A stretch of 64,000 nucleotides of DNA from Acidihalobacter ferrooxydans (GTDB taxonomy: Bacteria > Pseudomonadota > Gammaproteobacteria > DSM-5130 > Acidihalobacteraceae), in NCBI RefSeq assembly GCF_001975725.1, contig NZ_CP019434.1, positions 1,695,486-1,759,485 on the forward strand, given 5' to 3'. Both the position numbers and the translations under genes were made by a program. Shown here piece by piece: positions 6,641 through 61,904 of this stretch. The notes under the pieces were generated by a model. The model saw nothing but the letters and a program-made list of their open reading frames with translations. It did no database searches and was not told the origin of the DNA. Within the stretch, counting starts at the first letter, position 1; every line of letters begins with the position of its first letter.

Positions 6641-7861
<1,221 letters not shown>

Positions 7862-9152: not shown

Positions 9153-9239
9153 TGGTGCCGGGAGCGAGAATCGAACTCGCACTTCCTTGCGGAAACCAGA
9201 TTTTGAGTCTGGCGCGTCTACCAGTTCCGCCATCCCGGC
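9153..9239 (-). tRNA. tRNA-Leu (anticodon CAA)
   Basis: The 87-base gene has acceptor stem GCCGGGA/TCCCGGC and encoded A-CCA at 9156-9153. The anticodon stem is CCAGA/TCTGG with loop CTCAAAA, giving anticodon CAA at 9205-9203. The long variable arm and the T-arm GTTCGATTC fit a class II leucine tRNA. It would read UUG codons. Its 3' half faces the integrase gene and is a plausible attachment site. Confidence 0.95.
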
Positions 9240-12980: not shown

Positions 12981-13322
12981 ATGAGTTTCTTTATTTCCAA
13001 TGCGTACGCGGCTGATCCTGGCGCGGCCACCGGATCGGCCGGTGGCGGTATCGAACTGATCATCATGATCGCGATTTTCTTCGGTCTGATGTATTTCATG
13101 ATCATCCGTCCGCAGAGCAAGCGCGCGAAAGAACATCGCAAGCTGCTCGAAGCTTTGTCCAAAGGCGACGAAGTGGTGACCACTGGTGGTGTGGTCGGCA
13201 AGGTCAGCGCGGTCGGCGAAAACTTCGTGGAAGTCGAAGTGTCCGAAGGCGGCCCGGTGCTCAAGGTGCAGAAGCAGGCGGTGACCGGCATTCTGCCCAA
13301 GGGCACGATCAAGGGACTCTAA
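12981..13322 (+). CDS. yajC: Sec translocon accessory subunit YajC
   Basis: The 113-residue protein has a short periplasmic/signal-like start, one membrane helix (IELIIMIAIFFGLMYFMII), then RPQSKRAKEHRKLLE and a cytoplasmic domain with GDEVVTTGGVVGKV, all hallmarks of YajC. It associates with SecDF to aid preprotein export. The ATG at 12981 is preceded by a GA-rich stretch ending AAGGGC. secD follows 18 bases downstream. Confidence 0.95.
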   Translation: MSFFISNAYAADPGAATGSAGGGIELIIMIAIFFGLMYFMIIRPQSKRAKEHRKLLEALSKGDEVVTTGGVVGKVSAVGENFVEVEVSEGGPVLKVQKQAVTGILPKGTIKGL

Positions 13323-13340
13323 GCGGAAGGTTGAAGCGGG

Positions 13341-44471: not shown

Positions 44472-44864
44472 TCATGTCGTCTGCTCCTGCTCCTGTATCC
44501 GGGCGGCAGTTCGTACCGCGTGCGCCGGGTGTTCCTCGCCCAGACGCGCGAGTGCGTGTTCGGCCCCGGCGACAGGCAACATGGCGCGCAGCGCGCGGAC
44601 GATTTCGAGCCCCTGAATCACATCGCCGGGCCAGACCAGCGCGCAGTGCAGCAATGCCGCGCAGGCGGCGGTTTCGCGGCGCTTGCCGAGGGCGATGATG
44701 GCGCCCATGCGCACTTCGGAATGCGGGTGTCCCAGTGCGTGAATCAGCCTCTCGGCATAGGGAATGTCGCGCTCCCAGGCATCGGGGTCGAGGCCGCATC
44801 GCACGCACTGTCGCGCATTGTCCGGCAGCCTCGTGAAGCAGCGGGGGCAGAACTGCGCGTTCAT
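44472..44864 (-). CDS. small zinc-ribbon/HEAT-repeat protein
   Basis: The 130-residue protein begins with a CxxC-CxxC zinc ribbon (FCPRCFTRLPDNARQCVRCG), followed by helical HEAT-like repeats (HPHSEVRMGAIIALGKRRET). No enzyme motif is seen. A scaffold or adaptor role is possible; it sits after DUF190 in the same direction. The name of the family is not certain. Confidence 0.6.
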   Translation of the reverse strand: MNAQFCPRCFTRLPDNARQCVRCGLDPDAWERDIPYAERLIHALGHPHSEVRMGAIIALGKRRETAACAALLHCALVWPGDVIQGLEIVRALRAMLPVAGAEHALARLGEEHPAHAVRTAARIQEQEQTT

Positions 44865-44873
44865 GGCCCGTGG

Positions 44874-45194
44874 TCACGAATCGGCGAGTTGCGCCTCCCA
44901 GCAGATGATGTGCTTGGCGGGAACGAGTTCGCGCAGTTGTGGCAGAACGCGATCGATGATTTCGGGATCGTCGAACACTTCCAATACCAGCGGTAAATGC
45001 ACGTTCAGGCGCAGCAGGTCGTCGGCCTGAACCACGCCGTGCGCGCCGAATCCCGCCACGCCGCGAAACACGCTGGCGCCGCGTATCTTGTGCTCGTCGT
45101 GCAGCAGGTGGAACAGTTCTTTCATCAGATTGTGGTGAGAAGGCGTCTTTTCACCTTCTTTGAAGTAGATGCGAACGAGTTTGACCGTGGACAT
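44874..45194 (-). CDS. DUF190 family protein
   Basis: The 106-residue protein has the DUF190 pattern (VRIYFKEGEK at the start, HDEHKIRGASVFRGVAGFG, PLVLEVFDDPEIIDRVLPQL). The fold is ferredoxin-like and related to PII, and the gene usually accompanies crcB. Here crcB lies 3 bases upstream in the same direction, so it may sense or modulate fluoride export. It continues the leftward operon that begins with the Ehr-like complex. Confidence 0.85.
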   Translation of the reverse strand: MSTVKLVRIYFKEGEKTPSHHNLMKELFHLLHDEHKIRGASVFRGVAGFGAHGVVQADDLLRLNVHLPLVLEVFDDPEIIDRVLPQLRELVPAKHIICWEAQLADS

Positions 45195-45197
45195 GAT

Positions 45198-45581
45198 TCA
45201 GACCCCCAGATTACGGGAAAGGAAGGCACCGAGCATGGCTGCAAAGAGTGACAGCACAACGGAGCCGCCGATGTACAGAACGCCTCGCAGCGCCTCACCG
45301 TTTTCAAACAAATTCATGGTCTCCAGCGAGAAAGTGGAGAAAGTGGTGTAAGCGCCGAGGCCGCCGGTCAGCAGGCCCGTACGCAGTTCGGGCGACAGAT
45401 TGATGCGATCGAGTGTTTCGAAGAACAGAAATCCCATGAGAAACGAACCCAGCACGTTGATCGATAGCGTCGCCCACGGGAATTCGCGGCCGAACAGCGT
45501 TTGCACGAGCAGGGTCTGGCCGTAACGCGCCCAGGCGCCGAGCGAGGCGAAAACGGCGATGGAAAGCAGGGTCAGAGGCAT
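45198..45581 (-). CDS. crcB: fluoride channel/exporter CrcB (Fluc)
   Basis: The 127-residue protein has four transmembrane segments and family motifs LGAWARYGQTLL, ATLSINVLGSFLMGFLF and GLLTGGLGAYTTFSTFS. CrcB passively exports fluoride as a dual-topology dimer. It lies 30 bases after the HyfB-like gene and is followed by DUF190. No fluoride riboswitch was seen directly upstream. Confidence 0.93.
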   Translation of the reverse strand: MPLTLLSIAVFASLGAWARYGQTLLVQTLFGREFPWATLSINVLGSFLMGFLFFETLDRINLSPELRTGLLTGGLGAYTTFSTFSLETMNLFENGEALRGVLYIGGSVVLSLFAAMLGAFLSRNLGV

Positions 45582-45611: not shown

Positions 45612-47609
45612 TCAATAGAAAAAGACGGTGGTGAAAATGGCTAGCAACAACAGGCCGATAATAGCCAGATAATCGTTCAAAAAGCCCGATTGCAGATGAC
45701 GGAAAATCTGCGCCAGTCGGGCGATCAGGCGCAGGATAGGGCGGAACAGCAGCGGCGTGAAGATGGCCGTCTGGGCATAGTCGAAACGCAGTGCCTGGAT
45801 AAAATACTGGCGGCTGCCATAGTCGCGCTGCGTCTCGGTGCTGGGACGGTAGACAAAGCCATAGAACACGCGCATCGCATTGGCAAAGGCGAGCGCGGTG
45901 GTCGCGTTGCGTTCGGTCACCGGCAGGCCGCCGCTCCATAAGGGCGCGCGGCGCAGCCCGCGCCGTGCGATGGCCCACCACACCGCTGCCAGCGCGGGCA
46001 GCGCCAGCAGCGGCCCGACGACCACCAGTATGGCTGGCGAGATGAAGGCAAAACCGCTGCTCAGCGGCACCAGCAAGGCACCGTGGGTCAGCGCCGGGGC
46101 CGCCTGGCCCAATCCTGCCGGCCAGGGATCGGCGCCCAGCCACGGCAGCAGCCAGACCAACGCCACCGCTAACCCCGGCACGGCCAGCCCGGTGATCAAT
46201 ACCGCCAGCCGGTAGCGTAGCGCGGGCCGGCCCACGCCATCACTGCGCGGGCCAAGCAGGCCCACGCCCAGCAGCTTGACGAAAGTAGCCAGCGCCAGGG
46301 CCGCAGTCAGCGCCACGCCGGCACCGGCCAGCGCCAGCGTGATGCGTGCGCCCTGTCCGTGCAGCGCGAAATCGTGAAAGATGGTCTGGAACAGATACCA
46401 CTCGCTGACGAAGCCGATGGTCGGCGGCATCGCGGCCAGACTCATGCCGGCGAACACCGCGCCGAGGCCCAGCGTCCAGGGTGCGCGGCGCAACAGCCCG
46501 CGCGGCGCGATGGCGTAGCTGCCGGTGGCCTGCTGCACCGCGTCAGCGGCGAACAGCAACGCGCCCTTGGCCAGCGCGTGACCGGCGAGGTGAATCATGC
46601 CGACCAGAAACGCCAGCCCGGCGAGCCGGGGCAAATCCTGGGCGTGAAACAGCAAGGCGGCACCCAGCGCCACCACTGCCAGCCCAGCGTTTTCGGCGGT
46701 GGAATAACCGAGCAGGCGACGCCAGTCGTTTTCTTGCAGGGCGAACAGCATGGCCAGAATGGCCGAGAGGACGCCGACGGCCACCAGGATTACGCCGAGG
46801 GCCAGCGCCACCGCGCCGCCGGGTGCCCAGTCGAGCAGGGCGCGGGCAAGCACGAACCAGGCCGCATTCAGGAACAGCCCGGAGAACAGCGCGCCAGTGC
46901 CGCCGCCGGCCTGCCCGTAGGCGCTCGGGAACCATTCATAAAACGGCAGCAGACCGAGCTTGGCGCCGCTGCCGACGACAAACAGCAGCCCGAGCAGCAG
47001 CGCCGGCCAGAAGTCGAGCGCATGGAAGCGCGCCGCGACGGCGGCGAAACCGGGATCAAACGCTCCCAACGCAGCCAGCGCCAGCAGCAAGGCCACGGCA
47101 CCGACTTCGAGCAGGCCGAGCATGAACAGCCCGGCGAGCCCGCCGGCGGCATCGCCACGGTCGGCCAACAGCATCAGCGCACCGCCCAGACTCATCGCCT
47201 CCCAGGCGATCAGCAGCGCGACGCCGTCCTGCAGACCAAACACGCCCAGCGCGCCGAGCAGCCCGACAGCGGCGCCGAATACCCAACGCCCGGCGCGCCC
47301 GGCCGGTGCCGGCGCGCCGCCCAGCGCCACGGCACAAGTCGCCGGCAGCGCGGCCCAGCCGATCAGCCACAGCGCCGCGACGTCCAGATGGAAACGCACC
47401 GGCATGCCACCGAGCGTGGACAGCATGGCCGTCCCGCTGCCACCCTGGGCGATCCCCAGCGCACTGCCCAGCATGCAGACGAGGCCGCCGCCGCTCAGCG
47501 CCGCGCGACCCAGGCGCGGGTCGAGTCCGGCCAGGGCAAACAGCGCGGCGCTACCCCACAGCCCGGCTGCGAGGGCGAAGCAGAGCATGGCCGCATCAGT
47601 CACCGGCAT
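45612..47609 (-). CDS. hyfB: HyfB/NuoL-like antiporter subunit of an Ehr-type complex
   Basis: The 665-residue membrane protein has about 16 hydrophobic segments and resembles HyfB/HycC, the NuoL-like proton-channel subunits of hydrogenase-4. Charged channel residues occur in AWEAMSLGGALMLLADRG, KLGLLPFYEWFPSAY and the segment LFALQENDWRRLLGYSTAEN. Start MPVTDAAMLCF is chosen because it overlaps the upstream small-subunit gene by 14 bases; the longer frame lies in that gene. It is the last gene of the complex before crcB. Confidence 0.85.
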   Translation of the reverse strand: MPVTDAAMLCFALAAGLWGSAALFALAGLDPRLGRAALSGGGLVCMLGSALGIAQGGSGTAMLSTLGGMPVRFHLDVAALWLIGWAALPATCAVALGGAPAPAGRAGRWVFGAAVGLLGALGVFGLQDGVALLIAWEAMSLGGALMLLADRGDAAGGLAGLFMLGLLEVGAVALLLALAALGAFDPGFAAVAARFHALDFWPALLLGLLFVVGSGAKLGLLPFYEWFPSAYGQAGGGTGALFSGLFLNAAWFVLARALLDWAPGGAVALALGVILVAVGVLSAILAMLFALQENDWRRLLGYSTAENAGLAVVALGAALLFHAQDLPRLAGLAFLVGMIHLAGHALAKGALLFAADAVQQATGSYAIAPRGLLRRAPWTLGLGAVFAGMSLAAMPPTIGFVSEWYLFQTIFHDFALHGQGARITLALAGAGVALTAALALATFVKLLGVGLLGPRSDGVGRPALRYRLAVLITGLAVPGLAVALVWLLPWLGADPWPAGLGQAAPALTHGALLVPLSSGFAFISPAILVVVGPLLALPALAAVWWAIARRGLRRAPLWSGGLPVTERNATTALAFANAMRVFYGFVYRPSTETQRDYGSRQYFIQALRFDYAQTAIFTPLLFRPILRLIARLAQIFRHLQSGFLNDYLAIIGLLLLAIFTTVFFY

Positions 47610-48390
47610 GGCCGTTCTCCTGAGCTGTCGCGCGTGGCGGACGACGTTCCAGCAACAACAACAAGGCATCGATGAAGGCGGCCGGATTCGGCGGACAACC
47701 GGGCAGCCACAGATCCACCGGCAGAAGGCCTTCCAGCCCCGCGTGACAGGCATAACCGCCGCCATTGTAGCCGCCGGTGGCGCAGGTGCCGGCGGCCATC
47801 ACCCAGCGCGGTTCAGGCATGGCGGCATAAGTCGCTTCGAGCGGCGCGCGCATGGCGCGGGTGACCGGACCGGTGACCAGCAGCAGGTCGGCGAAGCGCG
47901 GCGACGGGGTGAAGAAAATGCCGAGCCGGTGCAGATTGTAGAAGGGGTTGTTCAGCGTCTGGATCTCGGATTCGCAACCGTTGCAGGAACCGGCGTCGAC
48001 ATGACGCACATGCAGGCTGCGGCCGAAGGCGCGTTCAATGGCGTGGCGCACCTGCGTTTCGCGCGACGCGGGCCATCCGCGCAGAGCGTTGCGGTCGCGG
48101 GTGCCGAAGGCCCAGTCGTGGGTGGCTTCGAGCGCGCCTTCGGGGCAGACCTCGATGCACAGCTGGCAGGTGATGCAGCGGGCATAGTCGAGGCTTGCGT
48201 TGCCGTGCTCGTTCAGGCCCAGTGCCCCGCTGGGGCAGGTTTCGACGCAAGCGGTACAGGCCGGCGCGCAACGTTCAGCGTGCAGCCGTGGCATGCCGAG
48301 CACGCCTTCCTGCCCGGCCGGGCCATCGCGCAGTGGCCAGCGGGTCGTGGCGCGGCCGGCGCGCAGGCCGGTCAGTGTCCAGAACGGCAT
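47596..48390 (-). CDS. hyfI: NuoB/HyfI-like small subunit fused to a 2x[4Fe-4S] ferredoxin domain
   Basis: This 264-residue protein starts with two ferredoxin motifs (CAPACTACVETCP, residues 41-52, and CITCQLCIEVCP, residues 72-82) and ends with a hydrogenase-small-subunit/NuoB domain. The cluster cysteines of that domain are in AGSCNGCESE, AAGTCATGG and LPGCPPNP. In E. coli these are separate HyfH-like and HyfI subunits, so this is a fusion. ATG 48390 has GGAGG upstream. It should shuttle electrons to the N2-like cluster next to the large subunit. Confidence 0.82.
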   Translation of the reverse strand: MPFWTLTGLRAGRATTRWPLRDGPAGQEGVLGMPRLHAERCAPACTACVETCPSGALGLNEHGNASLDYARCITCQLCIEVCPEGALEATHDWAFGTRDRNALRGWPASRETQVRHAIERAFGRSLHVRHVDAGSCNGCESEIQTLNNPFYNLHRLGIFFTPSPRFADLLLVTGPVTRAMRAPLEATYAAMPEPRWVMAAGTCATGGYNGGGYACHAGLEGLLPVDLWLPGCPPNPAAFIDALLLLLERRPPRATAQENGHAGD

Positions 48391-48583
48391 GAATACCTCC
48401 ATAGGTGCAAGATCAGACCAGGGTGACGGCGCAGATTTGCTGGCGCGTCGCACCACGCCAGCAAAGCGGCAGGCGCCGATGCGGGCCTGCGATAGGCTGC
48501 CACTGCCGAGGCAAATCCATCACGGCAAAGTGCGGAACCAACACGGAAATTGGCTATCAGACGGAAATGGATGGTCGAAAATC

Positions 48584-50074
48584 TCACCGGTCACACCCCG
48601 CCACGCTCAAGCCGAAACTGGCCTCGTTGATGGCGTAGTCCATCAAATTGGTGTCATGCACCGTGTACGGGAACACCCGCCAGTTGGAAAAAGACGGTGA
48701 CTTGATCTTGACCCGCGCAAGCCGTCCGTCGGCGCCGAAGAGCACGGTGTAGAACAGGGTGCCGCGCGGTGATTCGACCCAGCCCAGCCCCTCGGCAGTG
48801 GCTGCTGCATCCGGCAGTGGTGCGCGCACCGGGCCGGGTTCGAGCCGGGTCAATGCCTGGTAGATCAGGCTGAGTGATTCGTGCAGTTCGCCCATGCGCA
48901 CCTTAGCCCGGGCATGCGCGTCGCCTGCCTGTTCCACCGGCACATCGAAGCGCAGCTCGGCATAGGCTGCATAGGGGTGGTCGCGCCGGGTGTCGCGGTC
49001 GATGCCCGAGGCGCGCTCTACCGGCCCGGTGGCGCCCTGGTCATAGGCCGTCTGCCGCGTCAACGGGCCCGTAGTGATCAGCCGGTCGAGGTGGCTGCGG
49101 GTGTTTTCGAGATCGCGCAGATAGGATTCGATCTGCCGTTGCAGCTCGCGCAGCGCCTGATCCAGACCCGTGAAATCGAGATCGCGGCGCAGGCCACCGG
49201 GGGTCAGCAGCCCACGCGGCAGGCGGTTTCCGATGTGGCGACCGATGAGCTGCTTGACGCGCTCTTCCAGCAGCAGGCCTTGCGCCGCACCGACCTTGAG
49301 TGTGGTGGTCTGGCACAGATGGCCAAAGTAATGCAGATGATTGTACAGGCGCTCCAGCTCGGCGAGGATCAGGCGCAGCCAGTGCGCACGCCTGGGCACC
49401 TCGACGCCGAGCGCGTCCTCGACCGCCTGGCAGTAGGCCAAGGCGTGCGCCAGACTGCCGACGCCGGAGACACGCTCGGCGAGGATCACGCCTTGGGCGG
49501 CGCTCTGGCCCTCGAAGCGTCTTTCCATGCCGCGGTGCTTCCAGAACAGGCGCGGATGATAGTGCAGGATGCCTTCGCCGATATAAAGAAACTGGAATTC
49601 GGCCGATTCGACGACATCGGCGCGGATCGGCCCGAACGGCAGGTGCTGGATCGCCGGGTTGTCCTGTTTCGGCAGCCAGGCCTGGGTCGATACGCAGTCC
49701 AGCGGCGTGCCGTCGTCCAGCATCGGCGGAACAAGCGGTTTGACTCCTTCGTGCAGCACCAGCGACTGCGGATGTGGATGATGTTCGAAGCCGATGCCGA
49801 ACAGGTCGGCCATTTCGCTCTCGTACCAGGACAGCATGGGCAGGTGGTGCGCCAGCGAAGGCAGCGAACCGGTCACCGGTACACGCCATTCGACGAACGG
49901 CTCATGGGCGCCGCAAGACAGCAGATAACGGACTTCCAGCCCCTCGCTCGTTTGCAGCGCCCAGGCCATTTGCATGCGCCGGTGCGGGCTGTCGTGACCG
50001 GTTTCGCCAAAGGTCTCGCGCACCTTGTCAGGCAATGCGGCCGCGGCGAGACCGACGCTCACGCGGCGGTTCAT
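48584..50074 (-). CDS. hyfG: HyfG/NuoCD-like large subunit lacking NiFe ligands (Ehr type)
   Basis: The 496-residue protein joins a NuoC-like N-terminal domain (LSWYESEMADLFGIGFEHHP) to a large-subunit fold. In [NiFe] hydrogenases the N-terminal motif reads RxCGxC; here it is RVSGVG at residues 201-206. The C-terminal DPCxxC is replaced by a tail ending FGLSVAGCDR. Hence it cannot bind the NiFe centre. The protein resembles quinone/ferredoxin-linked Ehr or complex-I-like subunits. Start overlaps the upstream hyfF-like stop (ATGA). Its partner acceptor is unknown. Confidence 0.85.
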   Translation of the reverse strand: MNRRVSVGLAAAALPDKVRETFGETGHDSPHRRMQMAWALQTSEGLEVRYLLSCGAHEPFVEWRVPVTGSLPSLAHHLPMLSWYESEMADLFGIGFEHHPHPQSLVLHEGVKPLVPPMLDDGTPLDCVSTQAWLPKQDNPAIQHLPFGPIRADVVESAEFQFLYIGEGILHYHPRLFWKHRGMERRFEGQSAAQGVILAERVSGVGSLAHALAYCQAVEDALGVEVPRRAHWLRLILAELERLYNHLHYFGHLCQTTTLKVGAAQGLLLEERVKQLIGRHIGNRLPRGLLTPGGLRRDLDFTGLDQALRELQRQIESYLRDLENTRSHLDRLITTGPLTRQTAYDQGATGPVERASGIDRDTRRDHPYAAYAELRFDVPVEQAGDAHARAKVRMGELHESLSLIYQALTRLEPGPVRAPLPDAAATAEGLGWVESPRGTLFYTVLFGADGRLARVKIKSPSFSNWRVFPYTVHDTNLMDYAINEASFGLSVAGCDR

Positions 50075-51540
50075 GGCGCCGCCCCCACGCCGAGACTGGC
50101 GGCGATGTGCTGGAACAGCGCCCACAGGCCGTGCGGCAGCCACAGGCCAAGCAGCAACAACGGCAGCAGGCTCAGCCACATCGGCGCGGTCTGCCAGGTG
50201 CTCAGCGCGCGCGCTGGCGGCGTATCCGGCACAGCGCCGTAATACATGCGGCGGAAATGGGCGAGAAAGCCGATAAAGATGACGATCAGCAACAGGCCCA
50301 TCCATAGCGCCGCCCACCACTGCTGCCCGGCAAAGCCGGCGCGCAGGATGGTGAATTCGCTGATGAACAGGGCAAAAGGCGGCGCGCCGGTGATCGCGAT
50401 GGCCCCGGCCAGCCACAGGCTGCCGGTGACCGGGGAAAAGTCGCCGATCCGGCGCATGGCCTCCATGTCCTTGCTGCGGTAGGCGTGCATCATGTTGCCG
50501 GCGCCGAAGAACATGAGCGATTTATTGAGACTGTGATTGAGCATATGGAACAGCGCGCCGGCCACACCGAGTGGGCCGCCGAAGCCGAAGCCGAGCGCGA
50601 CCACCCCCATGTGCTCGACGCTGGAATAGGCCATCAGCCTCTTGGCGCCGGTCTGGCGGGTGATGAACAGGGCGGCGACCAGCAGCGAGAATGCGCCAAG
50701 CACGATCAGCACAATGTGCGGCAGCGCGCCCAGACCCGCCCGTTCGAGCACGCCGAGATAGCGCACCACGCCGAGCATGGCGCAGTTGAGCAAGGCGCCC
50801 GAGAGCATCGCCGAGACCGGCGCCGGGCCTTCGCTGTGCGCATCCGGCAACCAGGTGTGCATGGGCGCCAGGCCGACCTTGGTGCCGAAGCCGATCGCTA
50901 CCAGCAGGAAAGACAGGATCAACAGCGCTGGCGCGACATGCGGGGCGACCGCATCCAGCGAGGCCCAGGTCATGGCGTAGACCGGCCCGAGCGTGAAGGT
51001 GCCGCCCCAGTAGAACAACACGGTGCCCAGCAGTGCCAGCGCCAGCCCGGCCGACACCAGCACGATGTACTTCCACGCCGCCTCGATACACTCGGGTTCA
51101 CGCTGAAAGCCGACCAGAAAGGCGCTGACGATGGTGGTCAGATCGATGCAGATCCAGTACAGGCCGGGGTTGTTCTGCACCGGCGCGAGCAACATGGTCA
51201 GGCCGAAGGCCGCGAACAAGGCATAGTAGCGATGCAGGCGGCCAGCAGCCTCGGCCATCTGGCGCATATAGCCGATCGAGTACAGCGAGGCGAGCAGGTA
51301 GACCGTAGCCGTGCACAGGGTGACCCAGGCGGCAAAGCGATCCAGCAGGAGATAACCATGCAGCCAGACCAGGGGTTCGTGTACCCGCCAGGGCAAGGGC
51401 GCGGCCAGCGCGAAGACCAGCGCGGCTGCGGCAAGGTTGAGATATTCGGCGAAGCGCGGCCGCGCGATCAGCAGGCTGAGCAGGATCGCCAGCGTAGGGG
51501 CGGCGAGTATCAGATAGACGGTGGCGCTCAGATCGGGCAT
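50071..51540 (-). CDS. hyfF: HyfF/NuoN-like antiporter subunit
   Basis: The 489-residue membrane protein is related to NuoN/HyfF proton-channel subunits. It has about 14 helices, the conserved FGTKVGLAPMHTWLPDAHSE with the central channel Lys and Glu, and the segment HSLNKSLMFFGAGNMMHA with the second Lys. It is one of two antiporter-like subunits in this operon, overlapping hyfG by four bases. Confidence 0.88.
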   Translation of the reverse strand: MPDLSATVYLILAAPTLAILLSLLIARPRFAEYLNLAAAALVFALAAPLPWRVHEPLVWLHGYLLLDRFAAWVTLCTATVYLLASLYSIGYMRQMAEAAGRLHRYYALFAAFGLTMLLAPVQNNPGLYWICIDLTTIVSAFLVGFQREPECIEAAWKYIVLVSAGLALALLGTVLFYWGGTFTLGPVYAMTWASLDAVAPHVAPALLILSFLLVAIGFGTKVGLAPMHTWLPDAHSEGPAPVSAMLSGALLNCAMLGVVRYLGVLERAGLGALPHIVLIVLGAFSLLVAALFITRQTGAKRLMAYSSVEHMGVVALGFGFGGPLGVAGALFHMLNHSLNKSLMFFGAGNMMHAYRSKDMEAMRRIGDFSPVTGSLWLAGAIAITGAPPFALFISEFTILRAGFAGQQWWAALWMGLLLIVIFIGFLAHFRRMYYGAVPDTPPARALSTWQTAPMWLSLLPLLLLGLWLPHGLWALFQHIAASLGVGAAP

Positions 51541-51544
51541 GGCG

Positions 51545-52225
51545 TCATCCCACCAGTCGCTTGAGGTCGTGCGAGCTGGTGCTGCCGACGTGGGTCTTGA
51601 GATAGCGCGTCAGCAGGCCAAAGGCGCTGACGATGACCAGCAGGTCGAACAGGATGACCAGTTCCAGCAGCAGCGGCATGCCCGGCACCAGAATCTGCGA
51701 GCCGAGAAAGATGCCGTTTTCGATCAGCAGCAGACCGAGGATGTGGCTGACCGCCTCGGTGCGCAGCACCATCATCAGAAAGCCGATCAGCTTGAGTCCG
51801 AACATCGCGGTCAGGGCCAACACCGCAATGTTGCTGGCCAGCCCCATGCGCACGCCCAGATGCGCGGACACCTCATAGGCGAAAACCACCAGCACGATAC
51901 CGAGCACCAGACTGCGCGCCGGACTCAGGCGGGCGTGAATCTCGCGCTGCACCTGCAGGCCGTTGACGATGCGCAGCAGCAGGTAAGGCAGCAGCAGACC
52001 GCGAAACAGAATGGTCAGCACCGCGATGGCGTACAGCTCGGGATAGTGGCCATACAGACCGATGGTGATCGACAGCCCCGCAATCACCCAGGACTCGATG
52101 GCGAAGGCCCAGATATGATTCTTCAGCCAGTGCGAGCCAAGCATGACAAAGGACAGCGTCAGCGCGATGATCACCAGCAGGCTGAACAGTGCGCTGGCGA
52201 GTGGATCGAGATGAAAGATCAACAC
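51545..52225 (-). CDS. hyfE: HyfE-like membrane subunit
   Basis: The protein of about 226 residues has six to seven helices and resembles HyfE, a NuoK-related subunit with an extended N-terminus. The core segment FGLKLIGFLMMVLRTEAVSH is visible. The frame also starts at GTG 52234, but GAGG lies eight bases before GTG 52225, which is preferred. It begins right after the NuoH-like gene and is followed 4 bases later by hyfF. Confidence 0.75.
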   Translation of the reverse strand: MLIFHLDPLASALFSLLVIIALTLSFVMLGSHWLKNHIWAFAIESWVIAGLSITIGLYGHYPELYAIAVLTILFRGLLLPYLLLRIVNGLQVQREIHARLSPARSLVLGIVLVVFAYEVSAHLGVRMGLASNIAVLALTAMFGLKLIGFLMMVLRTEAVSHILGLLLIENGIFLGSQILVPGMPLLLELVILFDLLVIVSAFGLLTRYLKTHVGSTSSHDLKRLVG

Positions 52226-52235
52226 GACGCGCACC

Positions 52236-53183
52236 TCACAATTGGTTCGCGATGATGGCCAGCAAGGCCAACAGGAAAGACAGGGCCAGCGGTTCCTGAT
52301 ACCGATAAAAGCGCAGCCGCGACTGAGTCGTTTCCACGGTCACCATCAACAGTCCGACCAGGGCCCATTTGCCAAGCAGCGCCAGCAGGCTGCCGAGCAC
52401 TCCCAGCGGGGTGCCCAGCGCCGACAGTCCCCAGGGAATGGTCAGCACATTTAGAAAGATGGTGTAGAGGATCGCCTGTTTCATCCACCCCGCCCATTTG
52501 AGCAACGCCAGCAGTGGCCCCGAGTATTCGAGGATGCGCGCCTCGCCAATCATGTAGATCTCCCACTGGATACTGGAATGGATCGGCAGGCGTTCGGTCT
52601 CCACGGTGAGCAGAATAAAAAACGCCGCAACCAGAAACAGATGCGACGGCGACCAGTACACCGCCGGCTGTGCCACCAGCAGGTGATTGACCACGAACGG
52701 CAGCATCGACTTGGCGAACAGGGTGATGCCGACAAACACCAGAATCAGCGTCGGCTCGGCCAGAATGGCCAGCATGGACTCGCGGCTGGAGCCCAGTCCG
52801 CCGTAGGGATGCCCGCTGTCCAGCCCGGCCAGCAGAATGGAGAATCCGGCCAGGGTCAGGATCAGGCCGCCGCCGAGGATGTCGCCCATGTCCGACAAGG
52901 GCAGGGGGTAGTTGGTCAGCACCGGGATCAGCAACGGCACGATCAGCATGGCGGTGAAGGCGACGAACGGGGCGGACCAGAACACCCAGGTGGCCGTCTC
53001 GGGGAGCACCAGTTCCTTATGAAACAGCTTCCACAGGTCACGGTAGGGCTGGAAAATGGACGGCCCGGCACCACGCTGCACACGTTCTTCGGCGGTGACG
53101 ATGAAGCCGTGCAACAGGGGAGAGAAAATCAGAACGGTCAGCACCTGACCGATTTGCAGTACGGATTGAGGGAGGGTCGTCAT
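52236..53183 (-). CDS. hyfC: HyfC/NuoH-like membrane subunit
   Basis: The 315-residue protein has about eight helices and typical NuoH features: AEERVQRGAGPSIFQPYRDL near the N-terminus and the acidic loop TVETERLPIHSSIQWEI. It joins the hydrophilic and antiporter parts of the complex. Start MTTLPQSVLQ is chosen over a frame 19 codons longer because it follows a GGGAGG sequence. It is the first gene of the operon hyfC-E-F-G-I-B-crcB-DUF190. Confidence 0.85.
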   Translation of the reverse strand: MTTLPQSVLQIGQVLTVLIFSPLLHGFIVTAEERVQRGAGPSIFQPYRDLWKLFHKELVLPETATWVFWSAPFVAFTAMLIVPLLIPVLTNYPLPLSDMGDILGGGLILTLAGFSILLAGLDSGHPYGGLGSSRESMLAILAEPTLILVFVGITLFAKSMLPFVVNHLLVAQPAVYWSPSHLFLVAAFFILLTVETERLPIHSSIQWEIYMIGEARILEYSGPLLALLKWAGWMKQAILYTIFLNVLTIPWGLSALGTPLGVLGSLLALLGKWALVGLLMVTVETTQSRLRFYRYQEPLALSFLLALLAIIANQL

Positions 53184-53244
53184 GCGGGCGGCCTTCGTTA
53201 AACTCCAGATACGACAAGTACTCCGCGCTATACGCGGCACCTGT

Positions 53245-53296
53245 AGGAGTCATCAGCCGAGGCCGGCGGTTCGCGGCGAACTCCATCGCCGTGTTC
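53245..53296 (+). repeat. R4 direct repeat, left copy
   Basis: AGGAGTCATCAGCCGAGGCC and the following GGCGGTTCGCGGCGAACTCC block match 56539-56589 at roughly 85 percent with one indel. It lies between the stop of the MutS-like gene and the start of hyfC. The two copies flank the MutS-like pair in direct orientation. Confidence 0.7.
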
Positions 53297-53305
53297 AGTT
53301 GCTTT

Positions 53306-54853
53306 TTAAGCAGTATGTGGTGTCTTGTCAACTTTTTCGGTGCTGTTATCGACATTTTCGATAAAAATGCGTTCAAAGATGTCTTTGCCGAAACTCGTGT
53401 CCAGCGGTGCGGATGGCAGCACGCGAAAGCTGCGTTCGCCATCATCCAGCCGTTCGGCGCGCAGGTAGAGCACGTCGGCGCAGCCGGTTTCGTGGAGGGT
53501 ATGCGCGAAGGAGTACAAATGCGTCACGAAGACGCATTTGATGTGCCGTTCGAGCAGTGCGGTGCAGACCTGTCGCGCGACTTCCGAGCCTTCTTTCTCG
53601 TTGGTGGCGGCGAAGGACTCGTTGAGCAGCAGCAGGGCATGCGGCGCCAGTTCGTCGACGATGTCGCTCATGCGCAGCAATTCCTCCTCGAACTTACCGC
53701 TGTGCATGGCGGCGTCTTCGGTTTGCTTGAAGTGAGTAAAAATGCGCGTACAAAGGTTCGCGCTGAAACGTTCGGCAGTGATGAACAAACCGGCCTGGAG
53801 CATGATCTGCGCGATTCCGAGCGCGCGCAGGAAGGTCGATTTACCGCCACGGTTGGCACCTGTGACGATGAGCATGCTGATGTCGTCGGCGGCAAGATCG
53901 TTCGGCACGGCCGGCTGCGAAGTGCTCAGCGTGAGGCAGGCGTCGTACAGTCCGGTGGCCGCGAGGCGCCGCTGTTCGGTGGGGACCGGTTCGGGGAAGC
54001 AGAGCCCGGCGCCGGTTTTGCTCAGCGCGGCGTGCAGGTTCATGGTGGCGATGTAGAAGGCCAGTTCGCTGCGCATCTGTTTGAAAAAACCGAGTACATG
54101 ATCGCCGGCCTGGGCCAGGGCGTCGGCCACCGTGGCGATGCCGCGCTCGCGCAATTCGGCGAGTGCCGTATGCCCGGCTTCGTCGCGCTCCGCGATCCGA
54201 AAGGTGTATTCGTCGGCATGGTTGAGCGGCAGCAGGCGTTGTAGCCAGTTGTCGTCTTCGCGCAGTTCCTTGAGCGCGTAGTTCGCGCCTTTGTTGCCGG
54301 GGCCGAGTTGCGCGCCGATCAGCACGCCGTGTTTGAAGCGCAGCGTTTCGATCTGTGCTTCGAGTACGCTCAGATACGCGTCATCGAGTTCCTTGTCCAG
54401 CCTGTCGAACAGGGTTCTGAAGCCTTCCGATTCAAATTCATGCGCATGATCCTTCGAGAAGTTTCTGATGGTCCTGATCTGCTCCAGCAGCATGCTCAGC
54501 AATTCGACGCCGCGGTGCAGAAGGCTCGTCGGCGAGTGCCCGAAGGCCCAGAAGCGCATTGCGCGCCGCTCGGTGTCGAGCGTGTCGAGTACCGTGGCAT
54601 AGAGCGCGCGAATCCGCTCCGGATGCGCGAGACAATCGCGTAACACCTGCTGGCGGTAGCGCACCATGCGCACACTGGCGGGTGTGGCCGCAAGCAGTAC
54701 CGCGCGCGAGATGGTGCGCAGAAAGTCATCGTCGCCGGCCATGGCTGCGAGGAGCGTATCGAGTTCGAGATCGCGGGCAACCGTTTCCGCCTGGGCCGGC
54801 AGGGCGGCATCGGGGTCGAAATCGCGGTCGGGGTACAGCAGGTGGACGTTCAT
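53306..54853 (-). CDS. MutS-family ATPase, clamp/lever-lacking (gene 2 of pair)
   Basis: The 515-residue protein has the MutS ATPase domain with Walker A TGANRGGKST at 331-340 and a Walker-B-like LLLLNESFAATN at 407-418, where the usual Asp before Glu is Asn. The N-terminal 300 residues look like the helical MutS core (domain III), without a mismatch-recognition or clamp domain and without an Smr domain. A segment near HSGKFEEELLRM resembles the MutS signature. It overlaps gene 1 by ATGA, so a heterodimer is likely. Function in DNA repair or structure surveillance is unproven. Confidence 0.8.
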   Translation of the reverse strand: MNVHLLYPDRDFDPDAALPAQAETVARDLELDTLLAAMAGDDDFLRTISRAVLLAATPASVRMVRYRQQVLRDCLAHPERIRALYATVLDTLDTERRAMRFWAFGHSPTSLLHRGVELLSMLLEQIRTIRNFSKDHAHEFESEGFRTLFDRLDKELDDAYLSVLEAQIETLRFKHGVLIGAQLGPGNKGANYALKELREDDNWLQRLLPLNHADEYTFRIAERDEAGHTALAELRERGIATVADALAQAGDHVLGFFKQMRSELAFYIATMNLHAALSKTGAGLCFPEPVPTEQRRLAATGLYDACLTLSTSQPAVPNDLAADDISMLIVTGANRGGKSTFLRALGIAQIMLQAGLFITAERFSANLCTRIFTHFKQTEDAAMHSGKFEEELLRMSDIVDELAPHALLLLNESFAATNEKEGSEVARQVCTALLERHIKCVFVTHLYSFAHTLHETGCADVLYLRAERLDDGERSFRVLPSAPLDTSFGKDIFERIFIENVDNSTEKVDKTPHTA

Positions 54854-56511
54854 GTGGGCAGTCGCTCCAGCAGCGCGTGGTAGGTGAGCCGGTATTTACC
54901 GGCCAGACTGAGCGCGTAGGCGATGCCGTCCGCGGCGCGCCGTTCGATGCGGTAGGTGCGCTGCGTCGGATCGCCCGGCACTATCGAACCGGCCATGCTC
55001 ACCACGCTCGGATCGGCTGTGGCGAGTTCGTCGATGAACGTCACCCAGGCGGCGACGAACTCGCGCTGCACGAGGCGGGCGAGTATCTCACGGCTCAGGT
55101 AGAGCGCGTCGGCGTAGGTCGTCGAATCGAAAATTTCATTGAACAGAATCAGGCTGTCGTTGCTGGCGCGGGTGAATGTCTCATGCAGACGCATCAGATC
55201 GTCTTCGAGCTTGCTGCGACGGGTGGCAATGTCTTCGCGGCGCTCGAAATGCGTGAAGATGCGGTCGCACAGCAGCAGGCGAACGTTCGCGCCGGGCACG
55301 CAGCAACCGAGCCCGCCCAGGTGATGTAACTGCCCCAGCATGCGTGCGAACGTGGTTTTACCGCTTTGGTTGGGGCCGGTGACGACAAAGATGCGTTCCT
55401 CGTCCTGCAAGTGAAATGCGTTGTCCACGGGCGTTTCGCCGCTGCCGGCCAGCGTGGTCGCAAGGGCGAGGTCGAAGGCATGGTCGGCGTGGAGCGCGCG
55501 GTCGTCGGTGGCGAACTCGGGGTAGGAAAACGTCAGCCCCGCCGCGCGCAGCGGAGCGATGTAGTCGAGCCATGCGAGGTGGAACTGCATCTCGCGCTCG
55601 CAGGTGGCGACTTGCGTCGCAATGAACGGATAACGCGCAAAATCCACGGCACGCCCAGCGGGTGAGGGGGTGGCCAGCGCGGCGGGCGCGGCGGCGTAGC
55701 GCTCGCAAAATGCGCCAAGCTCGGAGAACAGTTCGGCGTAAAGTTGTGCGACGCCATCCAGAATCCGGGCTTCGACCGCGTTCATCTCTATCGCATCGGT
55801 GAAGCGGAACGCATGCGTTTCGACAGCCCTCAGCCTGAAGCGGTCGAAGGCACGCTCAACCTGCGGGCTGTAATCGGGCTCGCCCTCATCCCGCCGGACC
55901 GTGATTCGATTGTCGCGGATCAGAAGGGTGTAGCGCACGGCGTCCAGAGCCGTCCGCAGGGTCTGCGTTGCCTGCGCCAGGGTCTTGAATGCTTCGCTTT
56001 CGGTATAGGTGCGCAGAACGCCGAGCAGGGCGCGCAAACCTTCGGATTCGACCGTATTCAGGTCGCCGACGAGCGCGCTGACCGCGGCGCAGTAAATGGC
56101 TGCCGCATCGAGCTGGTCACGCTGGCGCTGCAAGGGGTAATACGCCGCCTCCGCGCGCTCCAGCAAAGCGCGCATGGCCTGCATCTGCTGCGCGAAATGC
56201 CGGCAGCCGGCATAAAGTGCCGGGCGTTCCAGATCGCGCATGATCGCCTGCCGGTAACGAACCGTCGGCGCGTGGTGCGGCAGATGGCGAAAGAACGGCT
56301 CCAGGGCATAGTCCTCCCGGCCGGCGGTGACGGCGCCAACGATCTGGTCGAGGTTGAGATCGGTGAACCAGGGTGGTTCGGGCGCATCGGCCGGCGGTTC
56401 TGTATGGGGAAACAAAATGCTCGCGGCATGCCCGGTCGACGCATCGACAGGCCGCGATTGCGGCGATGGGTGGGGTGATGGCGGAGGCAGAGAATGGCTG
56501 GAATCGGACAT
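54850..56511 (-). CDS. MutS-family ATPase (gene 1 of pair)
   Basis: The protein of about 553 residues is a paralogue of its neighbour. Walker A is TGPNQSGKTTF at 378-388 and the Walker-B-like segment is LILFNEIFDST, again Asn-Glu rather than Asp-Glu. Both proteins share IFTHF ahead of a helical signature region. The first 45 residues are Pro/Ser-rich and disordered-looking. No mismatch-binding domain is seen. Start MSDSSHSLPP is preferred over an ATG 12 codons upstream that lies in the R4 region. Confidence 0.8.
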   Translation of the reverse strand: MSDSSHSLPPPSPHPSPQSRPVDASTGHAASILFPHTEPPADAPEPPWFTDLNLDQIVGAVTAGREDYALEPFFRHLPHHAPTVRYRQAIMRDLERPALYAGCRHFAQQMQAMRALLERAEAAYYPLQRQRDQLDAAAIYCAAVSALVGDLNTVESEGLRALLGVLRTYTESEAFKTLAQATQTLRTALDAVRYTLLIRDNRITVRRDEGEPDYSPQVERAFDRFRLRAVETHAFRFTDAIEMNAVEARILDGVAQLYAELFSELGAFCERYAAAPAALATPSPAGRAVDFARYPFIATQVATCEREMQFHLAWLDYIAPLRAAGLTFSYPEFATDDRALHADHAFDLALATTLAGSGETPVDNAFHLQDEERIFVVTGPNQSGKTTFARMLGQLHHLGGLGCCVPGANVRLLLCDRIFTHFERREDIATRRSKLEDDLMRLHETFTRASNDSLILFNEIFDSTTYADALYLSREILARLVQREFVAAWVTFIDELATADPSVVSMAGSIVPGDPTQRTYRIERRAADGIAYALSLAGKYRLTYHALLERLPT

Positions 56512-56538
56512 GGCAGGCTCCCGTGCAGCGCGCAACTC

Positions 56539-56589
56539 AGGAGTCATCGGCCGGGATGGCGGTTTGTGGCGAACTCCAGCGCCATGTCT
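56539..56589 (+). repeat. R4 direct repeat, right copy
   Basis: AGGAGTCATCGGCCGGGATG and the following GGCGGTTTGTGGCGAACTCC block match the left copy at 53245-53296. Both contain GGAGT and ACTCC arms about 30 bases apart, so each could fold. It lies just upstream of gene 1 of the MutS-like pair. Confidence 0.7.
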
Positions 56590-56624
56590 ATACCTGTTTA
56601 GTGTCCAATGTGCCGGTTAAGTTC

Positions 56625-57689: not shown

Positions 57690-58538
57690 TCATCCTTTAG
57701 ACAGCGCGGCCGCGTGGTAGGCGAGATGCTCGCCGATGAAGCTGGCGACGAAGTGATAGCTGTGGTCGTAGTCGTCGCGCATGCGCAACGTCAGCGGGAA
57801 TCCCCGCGCGTTGCAGGCTGTCTGGAGGTCCTGCGGGTAGAGCTGGTCAGGCAGGAATTCGTCGCCCGTACCCTGTTCGATCAACAGCGGGATCGGTTCC
57901 GCGCCGGCGGCGACCAGTTCGGTCGCGTCATAGGCTTTCCAGGCTTCGCGGTCGTCGCCCAGATAGGCGCCGAAACAGCCCTCGCCCCAGCCGCATACCG
58001 TCGGGTGGCAGATCGGCGCGAAGGCCGACACCGAGCGGTAGGCGCCGGGATGCTTCAGTGCGCAGATCAGTGCGCCGTGGCCGCCCATGGAGTGGCCGGA
58101 AATCGATTTCAGGCCGGGTATCAGGGGCAGTTCGGCCTCGACCAGCGCCGGCAACTCACGGGCGACATAGTCGTACATCTGATAGTGCTCGGACCACGGC
58201 GCTTGCGTGGCGTTGACGTAAAAGCCCGCGCCCTGGCCGAGGTCGTAGCGTTCCGGCTCGTCCGGCACGCCATCGCCGCGCGGGCTGGTGTCCGGGATGA
58301 CCAGCGCCAGTCCGAGTTCGGCGGCGTAGCGCTGGGCGCCGGCCTTGGTGCGGAAGTTGTCGTCCGTGCAGGTCAGGCCGGACAGCCAGTAGACGGCTGG
58401 CACCGGACCCTGTGCGGCTTGCGGCGGTAGGTAGACGGAAAAAGTCATGCGGCAGCGGCAGCCGGTGGAGTCGTGCTGGTAACGATCCAGCCAGCCGCCG
58501 CTTTCCTTGATGTGTTCGATACGTTCGAGTGTTGACAT
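57690..58538 (-). CDS. fghA: S-formylglutathione hydrolase
   Basis: This 282-residue alpha/beta hydrolase (esterase D family) cleaves S-formylglutathione to formate and glutathione. It shows WLSGLTCTDDNF, the nucleophile elbow SGHSMGGHGAL, the acid region GTGDEFLPDQLYP and the catalytic His in DDYDHSYHF. It is the last gene of the minus-strand run mtoX-gfa-adhC-fghA, 8 bases after adhC. Confidence 0.95.
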   Translation of the reverse strand: MSTLERIEHIKESGGWLDRYQHDSTGCRCRMTFSVYLPPQAAQGPVPAVYWLSGLTCTDDNFRTKAGAQRYAAELGLALVIPDTSPRGDGVPDEPERYDLGQGAGFYVNATQAPWSEHYQMYDYVARELPALVEAELPLIPGLKSISGHSMGGHGALICALKHPGAYRSVSAFAPICHPTVCGWGEGCFGAYLGDDREAWKAYDATELVAAGAEPIPLLIEQGTGDEFLPDQLYPQDLQTACNARGFPLTLRMRDDYDHSYHFVASFIGEHLAYHAAALSKG

Positions 58539-58546
58539 GAAGCCTC

Positions 58547-59656
<1,110 letters not shown>

Positions 59657-59699
59657 GATGGATCGTCTCCTTCGTGTTGTCGTTGGTGTGTCGGGCGGT

Positions 59700-60281
59700 T
59701 CAGGCGGCCGACAATACACCTTTCTGTTTGGCAGTGTGGGTGGCGATCAGGTCCATCAGCGCCGGCGAGAGGCAATCGTAGGGTTCGAGGCCCAGCTCAT
59801 GCAATCGCGCGCGGATGGCGTCCATTTCCGACGGCGGGGTGCCGCCTTCAATGAGCGAGGAAACGAACGCGGCGAACTGCGGTTCGCACCAGCCGGCTTC
59901 GTCCGACAGTTCGGTGTGAATGAAGTCAAGCCCATAGAACGGGTGGGTCTTGTCTTCGATGCGACCGAACATGTGCGCTCCGCACGCGCGGCAGGCATGA
60001 CGCTGGATCGCGGCAGAGGCATCGACGATTTCGAGTTTTTCACCGTGCGCGACAACGCTGACCGAATCACGCGGGACGACGGCGACAAGCGAGAATTTCG
60101 CCCCTTCCGGCTTCCAGCATTGTGTGCAACCGCAGGCGTGGTTGAAGGCGCTCTGCGCGGCGACCTTGACCACCACCGGGTCGTGGGCGCATTTGCAATG
60201 CAGAGTGCCACCCTGGAAGTTCTCGGCGGCGGGCTTGATGCCATGATCGATGGCGGGATGTAACGATACGAACTGGTTCAT
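59700..60281 (-). CDS. gfa: S-(hydroxymethyl)glutathione synthase Gfa
   Basis: The 193-residue zinc protein of the GFA family speeds up the reaction of formaldehyde with glutathione. Zinc ligands are in [22 protein letters not shown] and [14 protein letters not shown]. It is 43 bases upstream of adhC, and its position after the methanethiol oxidase gene places formaldehyde capture directly after formaldehyde production. Confidence 0.94.
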
Positions 60282-60370
60282 GGTCGTGTACCTCGTGTTC
60301 GAGCGGGTGCTTCGCGGGAATAGCTGTTCGCGCGAAGACGTTGGAGGTGATGTTGAACTGGGTAAGCGGG

Positions 60371-61792
60371 CTACACCGAGCTGTAGCAGAACGAATCCGT
60401 CGAGCAGTCGCCGCCTTCGAGGCGGATCTGATGCGCCCGGTAGCCGTCCTCGAAGGTGACGTAAAAGTCCGGATCGAGGCGCAGGCCGCCGTTGGGATCG
60501 GCGTGCACCAGCACCTGCACCCCGGGCATACCGCTTTCGGGATAGAACTGATCATCCCAGGTGCTGTACAGCGAATTGGTGAAGTAGATACGGCGCCCGT
60601 CGCGGCTGATTTCCAGCATCTGCGGAGCACCGTGGAAGGGGTTGCCCGACGGATGTGGTGTGCGGCGAACGATGCCACCCAGATGGACACTGCCTGCAAG
60701 ATGCGGGTTGTGTGGGTCGCTCACGTTGTATTGGCGCAGTTCGCCGGTGCCCCAGCAGGCGACATACAGGAACTTGTCGTCCAGAGACAGGTCGATATCG
60801 GTCACGGTCGGCGGGACCGCGGCGAAACCCTTGAGCAGATCGGGCAGGTCGGCCGGATCGGCGGACTCGGCCGGGATGTCGATGATCTTTTTGACCTTGA
60901 AGTCGTCGCCGACGTTCGCATCCTCGCGATACCACAGCCAGATTTCACCGTTCAGGTTTTCCGTGTTGACGACGACGCCGAGGAAACCGTAATCGCGGTT
61001 CGGCTCATGCGCCGGGCGTACCTCCAGGGCCATCTGGTGGCTGGGGCCGAGGTCGATGGTCTGTTTCAGGCGGCGTTTGGACAGGTCCCAGAAATGCAGC
61101 CGATGGCCATATTTGTTCGACAGAAGGTCTTCCGGGATGATGCCGTTCTCGTACTGCCGCGGCGTGCCCCACTCGCTGGTCATGGCGACGTTTTGCGACA
61201 GGTGCCACCAGAAATCGTAGGAGAGCCTCTGGTCGCCGTGGTCCATTTCCCACGGACCGAGGATTTCGAACGATTCACAGTCCATGATGAAGATGCCGGC
61301 GGGGGTTTCGTCGCCATTGGCGCCTTTGCCGCCGAGGCAGCTGATATAGATGCCGTCCGGTCCGCAGTGCACCGTGTGCGGCCGCGAATAGCCGGTTTTG
61401 CGCATGACCTCTTCGGGTTCGATGATTTTGACGATGCGTGACTGCGTCGGGTGCGGCTTGGTGTCGACGATGTAGATACGCGACGAGCGGATGCCGGGAA
61501 TGACCAGAAAGCGCCGTTCCACGAAGGGGTGGCCGCCCATCGGGCTGAGCACCGAACTGCAGGCGTTCCAGCCGAAGTGATGCAGCTCGTCGCCGATGTT
61601 CGGCATCCGCACCTGATGGACGACTTGACCGTACGCGCCCGAGCGCGGGTCCAGGTCCACCACCGAGAGCGCGTCGGGCATGCTGCCGTCGGTGCACAGG
61701 TTCACGACGTAGCCGTAGGTTTCCCTCGGCGCCTCCATCGCCAGTTTCGGCGAAGGATAAAAAGTTGGATCTGTACGCATTACGCTGGCCAT
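60371..61792 (-). CDS. mtoX: methanethiol oxidase / selenium-binding protein (SBP56/SELENBP1 family)
   Basis: The 473-residue beta-propeller protein shows the SBP56 pattern: [76 protein letters not shown], and [20 protein letters not shown]. Bacterial members (MtoX) oxidise methanethiol to formaldehyde, H2S and H2O2. Unlike some MtoX proteins it shows no signal peptide. GGAGGA lies just before the chosen ATG 61792. It is the first gene of an operon with the glutathione formaldehyde pathway, which supports the methanethiol role. A purely selenium-binding function is not excluded. Confidence 0.85.
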
Positions 61793-61904
61793 GATTTCCT
61801 CCAATCTGGACGTCGTCTGGATCGTTGATTGTCGATCCTGAATGTACTAACCCTGTTGTCCCCGTGGCCGTGTGAATGGTTTTCCACAAGCGGACTCCAG
61901 GGTG

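Follow-up and report, generated by a model that had tools for sequence, protein, structure and literature searches.

The crcB RNA motif was described with mutS listed among the genes behind it, and DNA damage was proposed as the trigger (Weinberg 2010, PMC2864571). The ligand of the motif was later identified as fluoride (PMC7266159). The genetic association reported by Weinberg 2010 is the same as at the locus described here, formate-hydrogenlyase-like genes included, but the main text says only DNA repair (mutS) and mentions no pairing, missing domains, asymmetric H-loop or Walker B Asn (PMC2864571). An operon of Enterobacter cloacae FRM (ppaC-uspA-eno-gpmA-crcB-orf5249) experimentally confers fluoride resistance (PMC5533749). 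It is also a riboswitch-controlled island that combines crcB with fluoride-target enzymes, but it carries no mutS pair (PMC5533749), and the pair is therefore dispensable for fluoride resistance in general. A 2024 review on fluoride resistance leaves mismatch or DNA repair unmentioned (PMC11139923). Literature on fluoride and MutS or mismatch repair, searched mainly outside subscription journals, yielded no study of what the pair does. The first-pass annotation of the locus suggested that it may be an undescribed pair. This has to be qualified, as mutS behind the crcB RNA was already listed in 2010 (PMC2864571) and the association is thus partly known. In the literature covered, we found no description of the pairing, the asymmetry or the invariant Asn, and the protein family and its mechanism are uncharacterised.

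Several MutS-fold ATPases are comparable to the pair. Msh2-Msh6 and Msh2-Msh3 are heterodimers of the MutS fold whose two ATP sites are unequal; they carry mismatch as well as connector domains and have Asp-Glu in Walker B. The pair would be a separate duplication from these, the Msh proteins being outside the tree presented here. MutS2 is recruited to ribosomes by its KOW and SMR domains. Its ATPase splits stalled ribosomes (PMC10897456). The MutS2 core of B. subtilis and T. thermophilus consists of lever, clamp and ABC ATPase with no mismatch or connector domains, as in the pair. However, MutS2 forms homodimers and has KOW and SMR domains and an Asp-Glu Walker B, whereas the pair is encoded by two genes without either domain, has Asn-Glu instead and falls outside the MutS2 clade. 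E. coli MutS D693N (PDB entry 3k0s) also has Asn in place of the Walker B Asp, but that protein is an engineered mutant, while Asn is fixed in both wild-type subunits of the pair. KamC (NF052383) is another MutS-fold ATPase and is annotated as acting on an enzyme, but it has Asp-Glu, groups with MutS2 and aligns with the pair only over the ATPase domain.

Organization of the gene pair and its riboswitches

The window is a 64,000-nucleotide stretch of contig NZ_CP019434.1 of Acidihalobacter ferrooxydans, and all the features of the locus lie on its minus strand. Gene A, the 5' gene of the pair (54850–56511), encodes a MutS-like ATPase of 553 residues, and gene B (53306–54853) encodes one of 515 residues; both assignments are based on PF00488, motif counts and AlphaFold2 models. 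In the ORF calls, an ATGA overlap at 54850–54853 couples gene A to gene B. The two proteins match the Pfam domain MutS_V (PF00488) with 57.6 and 77.3 bits, against a cut-off of 30.2. Pfam identifies no other MutS domain in either of them, and the mismatch-recognition domains are all absent. The description of the locus in the first-pass annotation, as two ATGA-overlapping MutS-like ATPases without mismatch-recognition domains, is therefore accurate. A 565-residue model of gene A starting at 56547 is an artefact. Its ATG falls within the riboswitch RS1, and the gene end at 56511, as originally annotated, is thus correct. A sigma-70 promoter scan gave no match, and PHROGs gave matches to the ATPase domain only, all in families of unknown function.

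Each end of the pair is flanked by a fluoride riboswitch aptamer (RF01734). RS1 (56531–56592) lies 5' of gene A, on the same strand and 19 nt before its ATG, and scores 40.7 bits in Rfam with an E-value of 7.5e-8, over the gathering score of 34. RS2 (53237–53299), between gene B and a hyf-like operon, scores 61.7 bits (E 1.1e-14). RS1 and RS2 are the sole fluoride riboswitches of the 3.45-Mb genome. With an aptamer above the gathering score, on the same strand and immediately 5', the pair belongs to a fluoride-riboswitch regulon. The riboswitches and the fluoride context were overlooked in the first-pass annotation, and they reorient the functional question.

The score of RS1 is modest, and C/C occupies the long-range tertiary pair that is normally A/U. 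Several Acidobacteriota riboswitches (loci L083, L125, L129 and L133) have U/A at these positions. The C/C of RS1 and the U/A of these Acidobacteriota riboswitches look like covariation of a non-canonical pair. In the predicted ligand-free fold of the leader, the aptamer 3' strand CUCCUG pairs with the Shine-Dalgarno-like CGGGAG, and GACAUGGC pairs with the start codon region GCCAUGUC. The P1 helix and pseudoknot, when stabilised by fluoride, would compete with both ligand-free pairings. From this model we infer that RS1 may be a translational ON switch, though the ligand-free fold hiding the ribosome-binding site has an energy no better than that of shuffled sequences (z -0.8).

Fold and phylogeny

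The AlphaFold2 models of gene A and gene B have pLDDT values of 85.7 and 84.1, respectively. Both models match the lever-clamp-ATPase cores of MutS and MutS2 with Z-scores of 27–30. Gene A superposes on the MutS2 core 7vuf with a Z-score of 27.7 and an rmsd of 3.1 Å over 366 residues, and gene B matches 9kce with a Z-score of 27.9. The two proteins thus share the MutS2 core fold, in agreement with the likeness to MutS2 proposed earlier; a common fold is no proof of common function.

Clear membership in a characterised MutS subfamily would have spoken against the first-pass reading; profile cut-offs and the tree place the pair in none. In the ATPase-domain tree, A and B are sister clades, and the joint clade stands apart from MutS1, MutS2 and KamC with support of 100/99. 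Several branches in this tree are long, so the attachment point of the A+B clade is unsure. MutS1 is rejected because Pfam finds only domain V, the scores of 66.9 and 65.5 bits compare with a TIGR01070 cut-off of 641.7, and the proteins fall outside the MutS1 clade (100/99). The scores for MutS2 are 70.5 and 32 bits against the TIGR01069 cut-off of 400, and MutS2 forms a separate clade. No SMR domain is matched by Pfam in A or B, the proteins stopping at the ATPase domain, and no KOW domain is present as judged by length and Pfam. The KamC profile gives 72.8 and 43.6 bits against the NF052383 cut-off of 300. KamC is not a close relative either; only its ATPase domain aligns, it has Asp-Glu in Walker B, and it sits on a very long branch with MutS2.

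ATPase motifs and subunit asymmetry

Both subunits carry the ATPase motifs reported in the first-pass annotation. Walker A is TGPNQSGKTT in gene A and TGANRGGKST in gene B, Walker B is LILFNEI in gene A and LLLLNES in gene B, and an IFTHF segment is common to both. With phmmer, Asn458 of gene A falls opposite residue 693 of E. coli MutS, an Asp in the wild type, and the top PDB match of gene A is 3k0s, the D693N mutant. The comparison covered 86 sequences of A and 88 of B, counting the pair of the window. Orthologues with Asp would contradict the reading of Asn as characteristic of the pair; Asn-Glu is kept in 86/86 A and 87/88 B sequences, so Asn is a family trait. Asp-Glu is found in all the other MutS-family proteins inspected, including MutS1, MutS2, KamC and an unclassified family. 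Lys of Walker A and Glu of Walker B are invariant in both subunits, and GK[LF] replaces the usual MutS signature in both. In the window's gene A, the second Gly of Walker A is replaced by Ser, which is unique among 85.

The H-loop distinguishes the subunits. It is VTF in gene A, with Phe in place of His, and VTH in gene B. The Phe is found in every A sequence (86/86) and the His in every B sequence (88/88). Walker A and the Walker B Glu are thus present in both subunits and the H-loop is altered in one, which is the pattern of an asymmetric ABC ATPase, and an asymmetric heterodimer is therefore predicted. The distal segments also differ. That of subunit B is basic, with a mean net charge of +4.7 against -10.9 for the rest of the protein, while that of subunit A is almost neutral (+0.9).

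Mutation of the Walker B Asp in E. coli MutS weakens Mg2+ handling and ATP-driven switching. This effect suggests a speculative link between the Asn and fluoride. The Asn would be an adaptation to fluoride; replacement of the Asp that helps to hold Mg2+ could prevent locking as ADP-Mg-fluoride, and the result would be a P-loop ATPase for high fluoride that frees other nucleotide-driven complexes trapped by fluoride. We regard this as distinctly improbable.

Distribution and genomic neighborhood of relatives

Matches in the 95 class relatives are confined to MutS1- and MutS2-type proteins, and among 398 phylum genomes only one besides the window's own has the pair, so the pair is sparse. A scan of species genomes gave at least 553 confirmed relatives, which form a widespread clade. 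The pair is also found on plasmids of Rubrobacter, Burkholderia, Rhodococcus, Mycobacterium and Klebsiella, beside crcB, enolase, pyrophosphatases, universal stress proteins and cation/proton antiporters. The loci analysed are the best 80 of at least 553 and are not a random sample. They come from Chloroflexota, Bacillota, Pseudomonadota, Acidobacteriota, Atribacterota, Spirochaetota, Verrucomicrobiota and other phyla. In these best 80 of at least 553, both genes are adjacent in 79/80 loci, the exception being a 3.8-kb contig. Start and stop overlap by 4 nt in 77/79 paired genome loci (ATGA in 72, GTGA or TTGA in 5). The heterodimer suggested from the overlap is likely, as the two subunits are always encoded together; A and B very probably assemble with each other.

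A custom model built here detects a fluoride riboswitch in 56/80 loci, and Rfam adds three among eight further loci tested, for at least 59/80. About 21/80 loci have no riboswitch in the searches made; many of these are short contigs, and Rfam was run on part only. The custom model gives 110 hits in 1.30 Mb of pair loci versus no hit in the 0.21 Mb surrounding other MutS genes, although its E-values are rough owing to the short calibration, and weak ones of the 110 hits may be spurious. The same model places a site over the cut-off in 4/95 class genomes.

Recurrent neighbours were clustered without preselection of families. The DUF190-CBS family occurs in 31 loci, plasmids included, enolase is among the commonest (25–28/80 loci), and an MFS transporter occurs in 23. 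A Na+/H+ exchanger is found in 13 loci, with 10/14 genes directly behind a riboswitch. CrcB is present in 10 loci by clustering and in 18 by direct search, and pyrophosphatase in 8; P-type ATPases occur too. The pair is thus linked with known fluoride genes, as crcB and DUF190 are present in the window's island and recur in relatives. The neighbourhood had been proposed as a place to look for defence or recombination genes; none recurs, and fluoride genes are found instead.

A dynamin-like GTPase is found in 20 loci, plus smaller groups of 9 and 6. It stands beside the pair in about a quarter of loci (examples are L069:17080-19197, L125:2286-4382 and 13047-14750, and L142:3063-4847), in some directly behind a fluoride riboswitch. 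The portions of the fluoride literature consulted here do not name dynamins as fluoride genes.

The fluoride-resistance island

Downstream of the pair, RS2 stands at the head of an operon in which genes for six NADH-dehydrogenase/hydrogenase-4-like subunits are followed by crcB, a DUF190 gene and a HEAT-repeat gene. The first product is a NuoH/HyfC-like membrane subunit (52236–53183; PF00146), whose start is set at 53183 because a longer ORF enters RS2. A HyfE-like membrane protein follows (51545–52234), identified from its operon position and a homologue at the same place in locus L170, with no Pfam match. Next are a HyfF-like proton-translocating subunit (50071–51540; PF00361, with NCBIfam hydrogenase 4 subunit F below cut-off), a fused 30-kDa/49-kDa large subunit (48584–50074; PF00329 and PF00346), a fused ferredoxin/20-kDa small subunit (47596–48456; PF01058 and Fer4) and a HyfB-like subunit (45612–47765; PF00361). 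The CrcB/Fluc fluoride exporter (45198–45581; PF02537, 96.6 bits) is the only CrcB found in the genome. The DUF190 protein (44874–45194; PF02641) and a HEAT-repeat protein with a possible zinc ribbon (44472–44864; PF13646) complete the operon. The whole stretch 56592–44472 reads as a single fluoride-resistance island.

The large subunit of the hyf-like operon (45612–53183) has cysteines only at positions 54, 127, 215, 254 and 494. It has no CxxC nickel ligands, so a nickel hydrogenase is unlikely. Some of the 'formate hydrogenlyase' genes of fluoride riboswitches may encode proton pumps that are related to complex I and are not hydrogenases. The small HEAT-repeat protein is also seen in other fluoride loci (L155:8709-9155). 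In a same-genus genome (L169), read by eye, a riboswitch is followed by crcB and DUF190 without the MutS pair, and in another class member (L170) a riboswitch is followed by hyfC and hyfE without MutS. The island looks modular, with the MutS pair as a separate insert.

Two further features were seen in the window. On the 5' side of the island, positions 57690–61804 of the minus strand carry in one run an S-formylglutathione hydrolase, a glutathione-dependent formaldehyde dehydrogenase, a GFA-family protein and a methanethiol-oxidase-like gene. An ALIL pseudoknot (RF01497, 99.6 bits), an IS3-family frameshift signal, is located at 7417–7533 of the minus strand, near a tRNA at 9156–9239.

Proposed mechanism and alternatives

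Membership in the fluoride regulon, obligate pairing, the fold and the motif asymmetry are well supported, and the pair almost certainly helps cells to survive fluoride. Fluoride would bind RS1 in the mRNA leader and turn on A and B, while RS2 would turn on the membrane complex and CrcB. A and B would assemble as an obligate heterodimer whose lever-clamp-ATPase ring is that of the MutS2 core. One composite ATP site would have the complete H-loop of B, and the other, that of A, would be degenerate. ATP binding and slow hydrolysis would open and close the ring around a fluoride-stalled substrate. The chances are about even that this whole reading is right, namely that the pair is a fluoride-island accessory, a heterodimeric clamp that uses ATP to remodel an assembly stalled by fluoride.

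The substrate is speculative. Fluoride inhibits both enolase and pyrophosphatase, and as metal-fluoride it acts as a phosphate mimic in enzymes of phosphoryl transfer. Since fluoride acts in these ways and MutS2 splits stalled ribosomes with the same core, a nucleic-acid or ribosome complex would be the likeliest substrate. The MutS2 analogy and the basic distal segment of B make it our first choice and a protein reactivase the main rival. A clamp on nucleic acid or ribosomes has a little less than an even chance; the missing KOW and SMR domains and the nearly neutral distal segment of subunit A stand against it.

As a protein reactivase, the heterodimer would use ATP to free fluoride-trapped enzymes (enolase-Mg-F-Pi, pyrophosphatase-MgF, P-type ATPases). 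The frequent enolase neighbours (25–28/80 loci) and the presence of pyrophosphatase and P-type ATPases fit this role, but a larger supply of an inhibited enzyme would account for the enolase neighbours equally well. NCBIfam annotates the MutS-fold KamC as reactivating lysine 5,6-aminomutase, and the fold may therefore act on proteins. However, KamC has the Walker B Asp, groups with MutS2 away from the pair and shares only the ATPase domain, and the literature search found no study testing KamC. We consider such a reactivase somewhat unlikely. DNA maintenance under fluoride stress, in which a MutS-like clamp would act on branched or damaged DNA, would agree with the lever and clamp of the MutS fold and with the listing of mutS behind the crcB RNA as DNA repair, for which a DNA-damaging stress was suggested (Weinberg 2010, PMC2864571). 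As the ligand proved to be fluoride (PMC7266159), the original DNA-damage argument falls. The pair also lacks mismatch and connector domains and an Smr nuclease, and the recurrent neighbour families include neither MutL nor recombination or repair genes, which makes this role unlikely.

An anti-phage or other defence module, considered in the first-pass annotation, would be in keeping with the sparse and in places plasmid-borne occurrence of the pair. The PADLOC matches are weak and cover the P-loop region only, the best scoring 18.1 bits with an E-value of 3.7e-4. Viral contigs yielded no relatives, and the neighbours are fluoride genes with no defence gene among the recurrent ones; we therefore abandon defence as extremely improbable.

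Public records frequently label such genes 'DNA mismatch repair protein MutS', and mismatch repair is unsupported by any result here. The fixed Walker B Asn makes it possible to see, in natural proteins, how well a MutS ATPase manages without its metal-binding Asp. Identification of the substrate would reveal cellular damage by fluoride beyond the inhibition of enolase and pyrophosphatase.
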